In this document: in pieces, positions 26,783 to 34,514 of the stretch
How the letters are laid out: every line of letters begins with the position of its first letter
Position numbering within the stretch: position 1 is the first letter of the stretch
Assembly: GCA_000283635.1 (NCBI GenBank)
Contig: HE613569.1
Span: forward strand, 1,699,501-1,763,500
Reading direction: 5' to 3'
From: Streptococcus macedonicus ACA-DC 198
Lineage (GTDB): Bacteria; Bacillota; Bacilli; Lactobacillales; Streptococcaceae
DNA length: 64,000 nucleotides
Program-made: the position numbers and the translations under genes
The notes under the pieces: model-generated
Told to the model about the DNA's origin: nothing
Databases searched by the model: none
What the model saw: the letters and a program-made list of their open reading frames with translations, nothing else

Positions 26783-28225
26783 TTAGTCTTCTTTTAATTT
26801 TGCCAACTCTTGTGCCAACAATTTAAGGGCAACTTGTGGGTTTGCTTTACCTTTTGTGGCTTTCATCAAGAATCCAGTGAAGGCTTTATCGGCATTACGT
26901 TTACCAGACTTGAAGTCAGCAACAGCAGCTTCATTGTCCTCAAAGACTTGGTGGATAATCGGAATAAGCACAGCAGGGTCAGAAATTTGAACCAAACCAG
27001 ATTTTTCAACGTATTCACGCGCAGAACCACCATTTTTAGCCAAATGAACAAAAACTTTCTTGGCAATTTTAGATGAAATAGTGCCGTCCGCAATCAAACC
27101 AATCATTTCCACCAAGTTTTCTGGTGTCAAGCCAATTTGCTCGATAGTCTTAGATTCACTGTTCAAGAATTGAGCAACTTCACCCTGTAACCAGTTAGAA
27201 ACTTGTTTAGCATCACCACCAAGCGCAACTGCACTTTCAAAGAAATCAGATGTTGCTTTCGTTGCTGTCAATTGCGCAGCATCGTAATCAGACAAGCCAA
27301 ATTGTGACACGTATTTAGCACGGCGTTCTTTTGGAAACTCAGGAAGGGTTGCACGCATTTCGTCAATCCATTCATCAGACACTTCAAAGAGTGGTAGGTC
27401 TGGTTCTGGGAAGTAACGGTAGTCAGCAGCACCTTCTTTGACACGCATAAGAATTGTGCCTTTGTTAGCTTCATCGTAACGACGTGTTTCTTGACGGATT
27501 TGACCACCAGCGCGCAAGATTTTCGCTTGACGTTCTTGTTCAAATTCAAGACCTTTACGCACATTGCTAAATGAGTTCAAGTTTTTCAACTCAGTCTTCA
27601 CACCAAATTCTTCTTGACCGTAAGGGCGAAGCGAAATGTTGGCATCCACACGCATTGACCCTTCTTCCATCTTAACGTCAGAAATACCTGTGTATTGGAT
27701 GATTTCTTTAAGGGCAGTCAAGTAAGCATAAGCTTCTTCTGGTGAACGCATGTCAGCTTCAGACACGATTTCGATCAATGGCACACCTTGGCGGTTAAGG
27801 TCAACGTATGAATAACCATCTGTACCGTGGGTATTTTTACCAGCATCTTCTTCCAAGTGGGCACGTTCAATGCGGATTTTCTTAGTTGAACCGTCTTCTA
27901 ATTCGACTTCAATCCAGCCGTTGTAACCGATTGGCTCATCAAATTGTGAGATTTGGTAGGCTTTTGGATTATCAGGGTAGAAATAGTTTTTACGGTCAAA
28001 GTGCATGTGCTGGTGAATGTCCATGTTCAAAGCTAGCGCAGCCTTGATACCAGCATCAATAACACCCTTGTTCATGACTGGAAGCACACCAGGGAATGAC
28101 CAGTCAACCACGTTGGTGTTGGTATTTGGGTCTTCACTAAAGTGGGCTGGTGTTGGTGAGAAGATTTTGGAATTGGTATTCAATTCAACGTGGACTTCAA
28201 GTCCAATGACTGTTTCAAAGTTCAT
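26783..28225 (-). CDS. gatB: Aspartyl/glutamyl-tRNA amidotransferase subunit B
   Basis: The kinase and tRNA-binding subunit of GatCAB, which converts Glu-tRNA(Gln) and, where needed, Asp-tRNA(Asn) to the amide. The start [24 protein letters not shown], the zinc/ATP region [20 protein letters not shown] and the C-terminal YqeY-like tail ([14 protein letters not shown]) are typical; length is 480 residues. Start and stop codons overlap with gatA in a TAATG arrangement, so translation is coupled. Confidence 0.97.
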
Positions 28226-30117: not shown

Positions 30118-31532
30118 GGCTCTATAATTTCTGTAGTGGGTAAATCCACTGTAGAGATTATGGAGCCTTTTTTAGTGTAGAAAAAAAGTCCCATATGACC
30201 TATAATGAAAAGCGACTAAACTCATATTAGAAAGGGTTCATATGGAACAACTAAATCTTATCACAAATTTTCTCAGAATTAAAGACAAAAATATCACTAT
30301 CACTGATGAATATAATATGGGGACTCACTTAGAACTCCACGGTCACTTGGACTACACAGCCCCTAAATGCCCAAAATGCAAGGGACAAATGGCTAAGTAC
30401 GACTACCAGAAAACTTCTAAAATCCCCTACCTAGAAACTGCTGGCTACCCTTTGCTTATCCGTCTTCGAAAGCGTCGTTTCAAGTGTAAAGATTGCGGAA
30501 AAATGGCGGTAGCTGAAACTCCTCTTGTCAAGAAAAACCACCAAATCTCTGTCGCTGTTAACCAGAAGATCGCTCAATTACTCATCGAAAATCAAGCAAT
30601 GCAACAGATTGCACACAGGCTATCTATCTCAACATCGTCAGTTATGAGAAAGCTCAATGAGTTCAAGTTTGAAACGGATTGGAATACCCTACCCGAGGTG
30701 ATGAGCTGGGACGAGTATGCCTTCAAGAAGGGGAAAATGAGCTTCATCGCTCAAGATTTCGACTCCCTAAATGTCATCGCCATTCTCGACGGAAGAACCC
30801 AAGCAACCATCCGAAACCACTTTCTACGCTATCCTAGAAAGGTTAGAAATCGGGTCAAAGTGATTACCATGGATATGTTTAGTCCCTATTATCAACTTGC
30901 TAAACAGCTTTTTCCGAATGCAAAAATTGTACTCGATCGCTTTCATATCGTGCAACACCTTAGTCGTGCTATGAACCGTGTCCGTATTCAAATTATGAAT
31001 CAATTCGACAGAAAATCCCAGGAATACCGAGCCTTGAAACGTTACTGGAAATTGATACAACAAGATAGCCGTAAACTCAGCGATAAACGATTTTATCGTC
31101 CTATGTTTCGAATGCATTTGACTAACAAGGAAATCCTAGAAAAACTCCTATCCTACTCAGATGAACTACGACAGCACTATGAACTCTATCAGCTTCTCTT
31201 ATATCATTTCCAAGAGAAAAACTCAGATCATTTCTTTGACCTCATCGAACAGGAAATAGCCACTGTTAATCCTATTTTCCAGACGGTATTTAAGACATTT
31301 TTAAAGGATAAGGACAAGGTTTTAAACGCCATGGAATTGCCTTATTCCAACGCCAAACTGGAAGCTACCAATAATCTCATCAAAGTCATTAAGAGAAATG
31401 CCTTTGGTTTCAGGAACTTTGAAAACTTTAAAAAACGGATTTTGATTGCTTTGAACATAAAGAAAGAGAGAGCGAAGTTCGTCCTCTCTAGGTGTTAGCT
31501 TTTCATCTACCCACTACAGTTGACAAAGAGCC
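30118..31532 (+). mobile_element. ISL3-family insertion sequence, complete, with 8-bp target duplication
   Basis: The element is 1415 bp. Its ends are inverted repeats: both start GGCTCT and share CTGTAGTGGGTA about 13 bases in. The direct repeat CAAACTTT flanks it at 30110-30117 and 31533-31540; 8 bp is the ISL3 norm. One intact transposase gene fills it. The perfect target duplication and intact gene point to a recent insertion. Relationship to IS1167/IS1193-like elements is likely but not proven here. Confidence 0.93.
30242..31498 (+). CDS. ISL3 family transposase
   Basis: A 418-residue transposase. It has the N-terminal zinc ribbon (CPKCKGQ near residue 42, CKDCGK near 90), a helix-turn-helix (IAHRLSISTSSVMRKLNEF), and the DDE domain with D in SWDEYAFKKG, D in ITMDMFSPYYQ with DRFHIVQHLSRAMNRVR next to it, and E in SNAKLEATNNLIKVIKR. 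The frame is intact. It lies in the element's centre, on the strand opposite to the pncA/codY unit, and its start is preceded by AGAAAGGG. Confidence 0.95.
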   Translation: MEQLNLITNFLRIKDKNITITDEYNMGTHLELHGHLDYTAPKCPKCKGQMAKYDYQKTSKIPYLETAGYPLLIRLRKRRFKCKDCGKMAVAETPLVKKNHQISVAVNQKIAQLLIENQAMQQIAHRLSISTSSVMRKLNEFKFETDWNTLPEVMSWDEYAFKKGKMSFIAQDFDSLNVIAILDGRTQATIRNHFLRYPRKVRNRVKVITMDMFSPYYQLAKQLFPNAKIVLDRFHIVQHLSRAMNRVRIQIMNQFDRKSQEYRALKRYWKLIQQDSRKLSDKRFYRPMFRMHLTNKEILEKLLSYSDELRQHYELYQLLLYHFQEKNSDHFFDLIEQEIATVNPIFQTVFKTFLKDKDKVLNAMELPYSNAKLEATNNLIKVIKRNAFGFRNFENFKKRILIALNIKKERAKFVLSRC

Positions 31533-31539
31533 CAAACTT

Positions 31540-32088
31540 TTAAACAATCCTTGCACCTAAGACATTTTTTAAATGATTTAGTGCAAACTGATGATTTTCC
31601 TCTGTTAAGCTCGCGACTGCTTCCGCAGGAATTTCAACATCATATCCTAAATTGTAAGCATCGATAGCTGTATGAAGGACACAAATATCCGTCAAAACGC
31701 CTGTCAATACAACAGTTGTCACACGACGTTCACGCAATCGAATATCCAAATCCGTCCCTGAAAAGGCTGAATAATGACGTTTATCCAACCAAAAGACTTT
31801 GCTATCTTCCTTGATTTCTGTATATAAATCAGCTAACTGACCATATAAATCACGACCACTTGTTCCCTTGATATTATGAGGTGGGAACAATTTTGTCTCT
31901 GGATGAAAATCATCCCCCTCATCATGACCGTCAATAGCAAAGAAGATATAATTCCCCGCTTCATAGGCTTCTTTGGTGACACGCGTAATAGCTTCTTCAA
32001 TAGCTTGTGCTGACTTTCCAGCCGTTAACTTACCATCATCTGCTACAAAATCATAGGTATAGTCAATTGAAATAAGAGCTTTTTTCAT
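31540..32088 (-). CDS. pncA: Nicotinamidase / isochorismatase family cysteine hydrolase (PncA)
   Basis: A 182-residue hydrolase that deamidates nicotinamide to nicotinate for NAD salvage. The triad is D9 (ALISIDYTYDF), K103 (LDKRHYSAF) and C136 (GVLTDICVLHT), and the metal-binding DGHDEGDDFHPE follows the family. It starts just after codY. A 25-base tandem duplication at this junction carries codY's stop and a second, out-of-frame ATG; I place the pncA start at 32088, with AAAGG upstream in the duplicated codY tail. An IS inserted directly at its stop codon, with the first base of the target copy being part of it. Nicotinamidase is the best guess; other isochorismatase-like amidases are possible. 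Confidence 0.88.
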   Translation of the reverse strand: MKKALISIDYTYDFVADDGKLTAGKSAQAIEEAITRVTKEAYEAGNYIFFAIDGHDEGDDFHPETKLFPPHNIKGTSGRDLYGQLADLYTEIKEDSKVFWLDKRHYSAFSGTDLDIRLRERRVTTVVLTGVLTDICVLHTAIDAYNLGYDVEIPAEAVASLTEENHQFALNHLKNVLGARIV

Positions 32089-32128
32089 TAATCATATGCC
32101 TTTCTTTTTTCATTAATCATATGCCTTT
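32080..32128 (-). repeat. 25-bp tandem duplication across the codY/pncA junction
   Basis: A 24-base sequence (starting TTTTTTCATTAATC on the plus strand) occurs at 32080-32103 and 32105-32128, one base apart. It includes the codY stop and the pncA start codon, so both are duplicated. The earlier copy's ATG is out of frame with pncA. Confidence 0.9.
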
Positions 32129-32898
32129 AATTTATCGAAGATACCTTCATTGATGACTTTAAGGTAAGTTCCTTTCATACCCAATGAACGACTTTCGATA
32201 ATCCCCGCAGATTCCAATTTACGTAGGGCATTAACAATAACTGAACGTGTGATACCAATGCGGTCAGCAATAACTGATGCAGTTAAGCGACCTTCTGTAC
32301 CGTCTAATTCACCCAAAATAGCTGATACAGCTTTCATTTCTGAGTAAGATAGCGTGTTAATAGCCATATTAACAGCTGTTTGTTTACGAATGGTTTCTTC
32401 AAGATTTTCAGTTTGAAGATTAAGTAATTGGATACCAACTACTGTTGAGGCAATTTCAACAAGAATCAAATCATCTTCTAAAAACTCTTTATCATTACGC
32501 CAAATGATAAGAGAACCTAGACGCATACCTCCACCATAAATTGGTGCAATAGTTGTCAAGCCATCAGGATAGATGTCTTTTGATTCTACTGGGAAAATAG
32601 TCAATTCATTATCCACAGACAAGTTTGCCTCTGTGTCGTAAACACGACTAGCCGCTTTAACGTAGCTTTCCGGAAATTGTTTGGCATCAAAGAATTCCTC
32701 TACGCGGTCAGTATTTGTTTTATACTTCATTGCATAACCAAGAAGGTTACCTCCTCCGTTGATGATGCAAACGTTACAATCAATGATATCAGCTAATTGA
32801 TCAGCCATTGTATTATATGGCAATTCAGTGTCTAAGCTGTCAACAGAGCGTTGCAAAATTGATGTAATCTTTCGTGTTTTTTCTAATAAATTCGACAT
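32113..32898 (-). CDS. codY: GTP- and branched-chain amino acid-sensing global repressor CodY
   Basis: A 261-residue global regulator that represses amino-acid uptake and biosynthesis when isoleucine, leucine and valine (and in Bacillus GTP) are abundant. The N-terminal GAF ligand domain spans residues 1-155, and the C-terminal winged helix reads [42 protein letters not shown]. It starts [18 protein letters not shown], with AAAGGAAG upstream; that ribosome site abuts the last copy of a 9-base repeat array that fills the leader. A CodY box overlaps its promoter, consistent with autorepression. Confidence 0.97.
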
Positions 32899-32909
32899 TT
32901 TCTACTTCC

Positions 32910-33080
32910 TTTGCGTTATTTGCGTTATTTGCATTATTTGCATTATTTGCATTATTTGCGTTATTTGCGTTATTTGCGTTATTTGCGTTATTTGCGTTAT
33001 TTGCGTTATTTGCGTTATTTGCGTTATTTGCGTTATTTGCGTTATTTGCGTTATTTGCGTTATTTGCGTTATTTGCGTTA
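32910..33080 (-). repeat. 19-copy 9-bp tandem repeat in the codY leader
   Basis: Exactly 171 bases of TTTGCGTTA on the plus strand (TAACGCAAA in mRNA sense), 19 units without a gap. Units 3, 4 and 5 (32928-32954) read TTTGCATTA; all others are identical. The array begins five bases after the -10 element of codY and ends against the ribosome site, so most of the 5' leader of codY is made of it. Because the unit is a multiple of three, two of three frames on each strand stay open, giving artificial ORFs. Confidence 0.97.
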
Positions 33081-33082
33081 CA

Positions 33083-33111
33083 ATTATATCAAAGGAATCC
33101 TTATTTTGCAA
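33083..33111 (-). promoter_or_regulatory. codY promoter
   Basis: Minus strand TTGCAA (33111-33106), 17-bp spacer, TATAAT (33088-33083). Transcription would start about seven bases on, at the edge of the repeat array. Confidence 0.8.
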
Positions 33112-33113
33112 AC

Positions 33114-33128
33114 AATTATCTGAAAATT
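33114..33128. promoter_or_regulatory. CodY box upstream of codY
   Basis: Minus strand AATTTTCAGATAATT matches the CodY consensus AATTTTCWGAAAATT with one mismatch. It lies directly upstream of the -35 element of codY. Confidence 0.82.
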
Positions 33129-33181
33129 ACTTTATTTTATGACATTTTTGTAAACGCATTCTTTTTAAGCAAATTTTAACC

Positions 33182-33214
33182 AAAAAAAGCATCAAAATGT
33201 TCGGATTTTGCGCT
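33182..33214 (-). terminator. Terminator of the aminotransferase gene
   Basis: Minus strand AGC-g-CAAAAT pairs with ATTTTG-at-GCT and is followed by seven T. It lies 50 bp after the aminotransferase stop at 33264 and so separates that gene from codY. Confidence 0.75.
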
Positions 33215-33263
33215 TGATTTTTTAATCAAACTGTAAATTTCCAACATTTTAATAGCTTTTTCT

Positions 33264-34478
33264 TTAGCGTCGATATTGATTTAATACTCGTGTTAATTTT
33301 TCTTGAACTTTTGCCAATTCTTCCACGCGTGGTAGATAAACGATACGGAAGTGGTCTGGCTCATTCCAGTTGAATCCTTTACCCGGAACCAACATGACTT
33401 TTTCTTGTTTCAATAATTCCAAACAGAATTGTTCGTCATCATCAATCCGATACATTTCACGGTCGATTTTAGGGAAAATGTAAAGTCCTGCGTCTGGTTT
33501 CACAGCTGAAAGCCCTGGAACTTCATTGATAGCTTTATAGATAAAGTTACGTTGTTCATAGATTCGACCACCAGGAATTAACAATTCATCAACTGATTGG
33601 TAGCCACCAAGTGATGTTTGAACAACATGTTGACCTAAAACATTGGCGCAAAGACGCATGTTTGCCAACATATTAAGTCCTTCAATGTAGCCTTTAACAT
33701 TATTTTTAGGACCTGATAAGACCATCCAACCAACACGGAAACCGCAGATTCGGTGAGATTTTGATAAACCATTCATTGACACACAGAAAACATCTGGTGC
33801 TAAGCTAGCAATTGCTGTATGTTTTTTACCGTCCATTACCAAGCGATCATAGATTTCATCAGCAAAGATAATCAAATCATTTTGACGAGCAATTTCAACA
33901 ATTTCTTTAAGAAGCTCATCAGGGTATAAAGCGCCTGTTGGGTTATTAGGGTTAATCACAACAATCGCTTTTGTGTTAGAAGTGATTTTTGATTTGATAT
34001 CATCAATATCAGGATACCAGTTAGCTTTTTCATCACAAAAATAATGAACAGCATTACCGCCCGCCAAGCTAACACAAGCTGTCCACAATGGATAATCAGG
34101 CATTGGCACCAAGACTTCATCGCCATCATCAAGAAGCGCCTGAAGAGACATTGAAATCAATTCAGATACACCATTTCCTAGATAAATATCATCAATATCT
34201 ATATGTGGGAACCCTTTTAGCTGACAATATTGCATAATTGCCTTACGCGCAGAAAAAATCCCTTTACTATCTGAATAAGCTTCACTATTGCGGGCATTAG
34301 CAATCAAGTCTCGAATGACTTCGTCTGGTGCTGTAAAGCCGAATTCAGCTGGGTTACCAGTATTAAGACGCAAGATTTTTTCACCGTTGGCAATCATACG
34401 ATTGGCTTCGTCAAGAATGGGACCACGGATATCGTAAGCAACGTGTTCCAGCTTTGAAGATTTATCAAATGTTTTCAT
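33264..34478 (-). CDS. Pyridoxal-phosphate aminotransferase, class I/II (alanine/aspartate type)
   Basis: A 404-residue enzyme that moves amino groups between an amino acid and a keto acid. The PLP-binding features are visible: NPNNPTGALYPDEL, FADEIYDRL, and the Schiff-base lysine in NGLSKSHRICGFRVGW. The start at 34478 (MKTFDKSSKLEHVAYDIRGP) has GAGG upstream. The AlaT/YugH-like type beside codY is a streptococcal pattern; alanine transaminase is plausible but not shown. Confidence 0.88.
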   Translation of the reverse strand: MKTFDKSSKLEHVAYDIRGPILDEANRMIANGEKILRLNTGNPAEFGFTAPDEVIRDLIANARNSEAYSDSKGIFSARKAIMQYCQLKGFPHIDIDDIYLGNGVSELISMSLQALLDDGDEVLVPMPDYPLWTACVSLAGGNAVHYFCDEKANWYPDIDDIKSKITSNTKAIVVINPNNPTGALYPDELLKEIVEIARQNDLIIFADEIYDRLVMDGKKHTAIASLAPDVFCVSMNGLSKSHRICGFRVGWMVLSGPKNNVKGYIEGLNMLANMRLCANVLGQHVVQTSLGGYQSVDELLIPGGRIYEQRNFIYKAINEVPGLSAVKPDAGLYIFPKIDREMYRIDDDEQFCLELLKQEKVMLVPGKGFNWNEPDHFRIVYLPRVEELAKVQEKLTRVLNQYRR

Positions 34479-34514
34479 AGATTTCACCTCGTTTTAGATA
34501 TTATAAACTTTCCC

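Follow-up and report, generated by a model that had tools for sequence, protein, structure and literature searches.

Among bacterial genes controlled by repeats, those for surface structures are typical and DNA methyltransferases were added later, as stated in parts of a review (PMC3899988). In the hmw1A gene of Haemophilus influenzae, 7-bp repeats extend from the −10 into the 5′ UTR and higher copy numbers give less mRNA and less protein, the mechanism being left open by the authors in the sections on this effect (PMC8262952). In Streptococcus gallolyticus, the pil1/pil3 pili phase-vary by attenuation through GCAGA repeats in the pil1 leader peptide; the 5-nt unit lies in the leader-peptide gene, and frame shift together with attenuation at a terminator switches expression between high and low (PMC3894217). 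Copy-number change of tandem repeats in gene control regions is also described in Mycobacterium tuberculosis, where the units are 54–58 bp long and hold promoter sequence (PMC12817950).

Streptococcus macedonicus ACA-DC 198, isolated from Kasseri cheese (PMC4293149), carries an array of 9-bp repeats in the predicted 5′ UTR of codY, the gene of a nutrient-sensing global regulator. It was analysed within a window, the whole stretch of 64,000 nucleotides taken from this genome. The layout is like that of hmw1A/hmw2A, where the repeats begin at the −10 and are placed within the 5′ UTR of the P2 transcript, with the unit outside the coding frame (PMC8262952). The hmw unit, however, has 7 bp and an unrelated sequence, its target is an adhesin gene, and its graded effect and variation have been demonstrated, whereas the codY array has a 9-bp unit, targets a global regulator and is known here from sequence alone. 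With pil1/pil3 (PMC3894217) it shares tandem repeats in a transcribed leader (predicted for codY), a probable slippage origin and a sister species as host. A 14-copy GCAGA array is also present in ACA-DC 198, just after an ATG (L153:1501-1570; G000:C1:1879337-1879406; 11 overlapping four-copy matches); it adjoins a reading frame that is signal-peptidase-like by eye and resembles the S. gallolyticus pilus leader arrays. Unlike the M. tuberculosis loci (PMC12817950), codY has a single promoter and only the leader is repeated. No repeat array in a codY leader was reported among the open-licence literature matches listed, and the word codY is absent from the main text of the genome paper (PMC4051162). 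The early remark that no such case had been described can thus be kept for codY leaders among those matches, but not for the architecture, which is known from other genes (hmw1A, pil1/pil3). It is the target, a global regulator, that is unusual.

Results

Structure of the array

The array occupies positions 32910..33080 on the minus strand of the window, where Tandem Repeats Finder gave a period of 9, 19.0 copies, 98% matches and a score of 321. Read copy by copy in the mRNA sense, 16 of the 19 copies are TAACGCAAA, and the adjoining copies 15–17 (32928..32954, minus strand) are the variant TAATGCAAA with one common C-to-T change, each creating an ATG. The 19 head-to-tail copies and the three adjacent copies with a shared change had been correctly noticed in the initial annotation, while its description of all copies as identical does not hold. 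The first base lies 2 nt past the −10, with TG in between, and not five bases past it as had been stated. The 3′ end is flush with the ribosome-site segment GGAAGTAGAAA (32899..32909, minus strand) and lies 11 nt before the codY ATG, which agrees with the earlier placement of this end at the ribosome site.

A chance origin of the array is excluded: the probability of its 160 of 162 period-9 matches is approximately 10^-83 by a rough independent-base estimate with 64,000 places allowed for, and that of a flawless array at one place is 10^-93. The copy number is the highest in the 464 kb of the genome that were sampled (the window and 20 stretches of 20 kb), the next short-period arrays having 10 imperfect copies (72% matches) and 5.3 copies; the 14-copy GCAGA array is located beyond the sampled stretches. 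The two-copy pattern TTTGCGTTATTTGCGTTA gave 14 overlapping matches in the genome, all within the codY array, and the same array was found neither in the rest of the genome nor in IMG/VR contigs. As in variable-number tandem repeats (simple-sequence contingency loci), short units are arranged purely head to tail (19 × 9 bp, 98% matches), and the copy number differs among related genomes, here between species only (two copies in eight genomes versus 19).

Promoter and leader of codY

The order on the minus strand is a predicted CodY box, the −35 box TTGCAA, 17 nt, the TG-extended −10 box TATAAT, TG, the 19 copies of TAACGCAAA or TAATGCAAA, GGAAGTAGAAA and the codY ATG. The −35 box (33106..33111) with its 17-nt spacer and the −10 box (33083..33088), with TG one base upstream, were identified by a simple scan; the latter box is present in the eight two-copy genomes described below, where it was part of the search pattern. 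The gene codY (32113..32898, minus strand) encodes 261 aa and is intact. With the start of transcription assumed to lie 5–7 nt downstream of the −10, the predicted leader is about 178 nt long here and about 25 nt with two copies, and since the array begins 2 nt past the −10, nearly the whole transcribed leader would be array. As in hmw-type 5′ UTR repeats, the array lies between the −10 and the start codon and outside any required frame, if the start site is placed in this way. An Rfam scan of positions 31000–34500 at gathering scores gave no family, and no promoter-like or terminator-like sites were found within the array by simple scan.

The predicted CodY box AATTTTCAGATAATT (33114..33128, minus strand) was found by motif match and has one mismatch to AATTTTCWGAAAATT, which is taken here to be the consensus. 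As there are four matches with at most two mismatches in the window and about two are expected by chance, this call is carried by position and not by score. Of 74 named loci, 72 have a match with at most three mismatches in the 150 nt preceding codY, a raw count without chance control, the two remaining loci being those of S. sobrinus (L105) and S. agalactiae (L110). Autoregulation of codY through the upstream box is likely; the passages of PMC9096947 on CodY in S. agalactiae include none on codY autoregulation.

Two-copy leaders in related streptococci

At least three tandem copies of the unit (TAAYGCAAA, exact) occur in only one of 284 Streptococcus genomes, ACA-DC 198 itself. A 40-nt promoter and leader, spanning −10 to ATG and holding exactly two copies, was found in eight of the 284 genomes with 0 mismatches (3 allowed), and these include S. 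vicugnae, three S. equinus strains and S. gallolyticus BI02 (five of the eight, recognised by coinciding identity figures). The 34 nt from −10 to ATG show no differences among the eight while their codY coding sequences differ by 8.0% on average. This suggests constraint on the leader, although the invariance is partly built in because the genomes were chosen by the leader pattern itself. Farther relatives, such as S. agalactiae and S. alactolyticus, have a similar short leader with a second unit of different sequence; in S. alactolyticus CodY is 94% identical, yet the leader departs from the two-copy pattern. The −10 and the ATG are 182 nt apart here and 19–42 nt apart in 81 of 84 distinct relatives, namely those with a −10 found by simple search, the other three having 70–85 nt. 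The highest copy number given by Tandem Repeats Finder upstream of codY in other loci was 3.9 (85 distinct upstream stretches from 111 loci). In the nearest relative, G096, codY is identical at 776 of 786 positions and the upstream stretch at 295 of 308, and two copies are present.

Since the relatives carry two copies, the array must have arisen from that state by slippage or tandem duplication, and growth was stepwise, some of it after the point mutation, since three adjoining units inherited a single change. Both observations, with the place of the array in the predicted codY 5′ UTR, support part of the interpretation in the initial annotation. A lineage-specific slippage expansion, from the two-copy leader of relatives in the Streptococcus bovis/equinus complex to 19 copies, is close to certain from the sequence comparisons, and two copies are most simply read as the ancestral state, with the expansion placed later than the divergence from the closest relatives compared. 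The purity and length of the array make it likely that the copy number is still unstable today. An age estimate from substitutions within the array was discarded, as the rough Poisson value of 0.07 had used an assumed neutral rate and the lower synonymous distance of codY, 0.028, removes its force.

Coding sequence of codY and neighbouring genes

Between codY of ACA-DC 198 and that of G096 there are five amino-acid changes and five synonymous differences. The amino-acid changes looked striking at first, and a decay specific to CodY was considered and rejected, the omega of 0.29 being on the high side but within the range of the flanking genes; this value leaves room for altered selection on CodY. 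In S. vicugnae (L160/L132) the synonymous distance of codY to window positions 32113–32898 is 0.125 versus 0.3–0.7 in the flanking genes scored, which suggests an interspecies exchange of codY itself. At the codY/pncA junction a perfect 25-bp tandem duplication (32079..32128, minus strand) was found by Tandem Repeats Finder and by comparison with relatives, being absent from all 17 relative loci (12 genomes) compared. Seven of the 12 genomes have a single TAATG stop/start overlap at this junction, and the duplication therefore moves the pncA start away from the codY stop.

Two further observations concern the neighbourhood. In gatB (26783–28225) about 43% of synonymous sites differ from G096, versus 0–11% in the neighbouring genes scored, and gatB is about as far from S. 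vicugnae as from G096; its replacement by recombination is probable. A transposase-like reading frame (30242–31498), ISL3-type by eye, lies between gatC and pncA, and no match to it was found in 40-kb stretches of G096 and S. vicugnae.

Predicted effect of copy number on codY expression

A TAG stop separates the frame of the array from the codY start, and because of this stop and of the position of the 9-nt unit outside the coding region, copy number can neither shift nor extend codY. Because the unit repeats, copy number does not alter the sequence next to either the start site or the ribosome site. In folding predictions the unpairedness of the ribosome site was 0.32–0.34 from 1 to 30 copies, flat and rather low throughout. 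The array was predicted to be 64–79% unpaired from two copies up (61–76% with the variant copies, from five copies up), and in the single-copy leader the residual array was paired, with 6% unpaired. A local structure switch, or structural switch of translation, is unsupported by these predictions, in which ribosome-site accessibility is independent of copy number. The initial annotation had suggested a possible effect of leader length on translation, which finds no counterpart in the predicted accessibility from 1 to 30 copies, and phase or dose variation of CodY. An on/off form is unlikely since nine bases outside the coding region shift no frame; the sequence is compatible with a graded effect on dose or with no effect.

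Discussion

The reading proposed here, which could fall either way, is that a two-copy leader was expanded to 19 copies, that the array is still unstable and that it is a graded setting on CodY output, probably with less CodY at more copies. On this reading, a 9-bp direct repeat making up most of the predicted two-copy leader expanded by slippage from 2 to 19. The added copies keep both ends of the leader, and what rises is its length alone, by prediction from 25 to 178 nt, most of it unpaired. A long uniform array would keep gaining and losing copies, and it would most likely act as a graded setting and not as an on/off switch. The favoured direction is that more copies lower CodY through transcript yield or decay, because leader length is all that remains to vary and because hmw1A, with the same array position, shows less mRNA and protein. 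For decay a route may be conjectured in which each unit adds a G within a mostly unpaired stretch, giving candidate RNase Y sites; in S. pyogenes a G lies upstream of 87.4% of the 5′ ends attributed to RNase Y (PMC7101322, in part). Higher expression, or no effect at all, would be equally conceivable for an unstructured leader. We infer transcription from the predicted start, present-day instability and an effect on CodY in the direction given, and that the array changes the CodY level at all is an even bet. A more far-reaching version, tentative and rather unlikely, is that a hypermutable, frame-neutral leader repeat sets the CodY dose so that cells vary gradedly across the CodY regulon, with autoregulation through the CodY box buffering or amplifying the differences.

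Alternatively, a slippage product may have drifted up in the dairy lineage under relaxed selection with no material effect on CodY, which is quite possible though somewhat short of probable. It is in line with the two unchanged leader ends and the flat predicted accessibility of the ribosome site, and amino-acid changes in the window lineage exceed those in G096 in 22 of the 23 flanking genes that could be scored against S. vicugnae, so that selection looks generally relaxed. Because of this apparent general relaxation the neutral reading is nearly as good as one in which CodY is changed. Leader length nevertheless appears constrained elsewhere, since −10 and ATG lie at most 85 nt apart in all 84 relatives scored and at most 42 nt apart in 81 of them, and the leader is invariant in eight genomes (chosen by that pattern) despite 8% divergence of codY. 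It is improbable that the long leader is instead an allele that is stable today, selected a single time for resetting the CodY dose in milk, where the proteolytic system is under CodY control. The strain is a cheese isolate (PMC4293149), and in Lactococcus lactis both codY and the proteolytic system are regulated by CodY (review passages, PMC4155825). The junction of codY and pncA carries a second tandem change, the five amino-acid changes affect a CodY protein in which G096 and S. vicugnae do not differ, and the codY omega against G096 is exceeded by only three of 24 flanking genes (median 0.14). That omega is however based on 10 differences and lies within the neighbours' range of 0.02–0.39, stability is unexpected for a pure 19-copy array, and the comparison covers one S. 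macedonicus genome. No report of codY mutations in milk evolution was found among the literature matches listed, a review and an unrelated paper.

Control by a leader peptide is highly improbable. The ATGs of the variant copies open a 16-codon reading frame, MQIMQIMQITQITQRK, which stops just before the codY start (TAG, then AAA-ATG) and could couple to codY, and steps of 9 nt would keep its register. A ribosome site upstream of these ATGs was however not found by eye, the leader has no terminator-like stem, and the frame relies on a substitution in three of the 19 copies. These two absences and the 9-nt unit also set the codY leader apart from leader-peptide attenuators of the pil type. An assembly error in the copy number is the least probable of the alternatives, as the 171 bp of the array fit within the length of 454 Titanium reads, and the internal variant copies anchor reads. 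The genome dates from the time of 454 GS-FLX plus Illumina sequencing (PMC4051162, PMC4293149), but according to parts of the genome paper the hybrid assembly was validated against an optical map (PMC4051162), and such errors are expected to collapse repeats and not to expand them (PMC12817950, in part).

Should the array prove to have no effect on CodY, the locus would still demonstrate a sevenfold growth of a leader that almost all relatives keep short, made possible by a repeat unit that preserves both leader ends. If it is true that copy number sets the dose of CodY, a single unstable locus would alter amino-acid supply and proteolysis along with much else, it would offer a direct test of the tuning of a master regulator by leader length in bacteria, and it would have a bearing on the stability of strains in dairy cultures.
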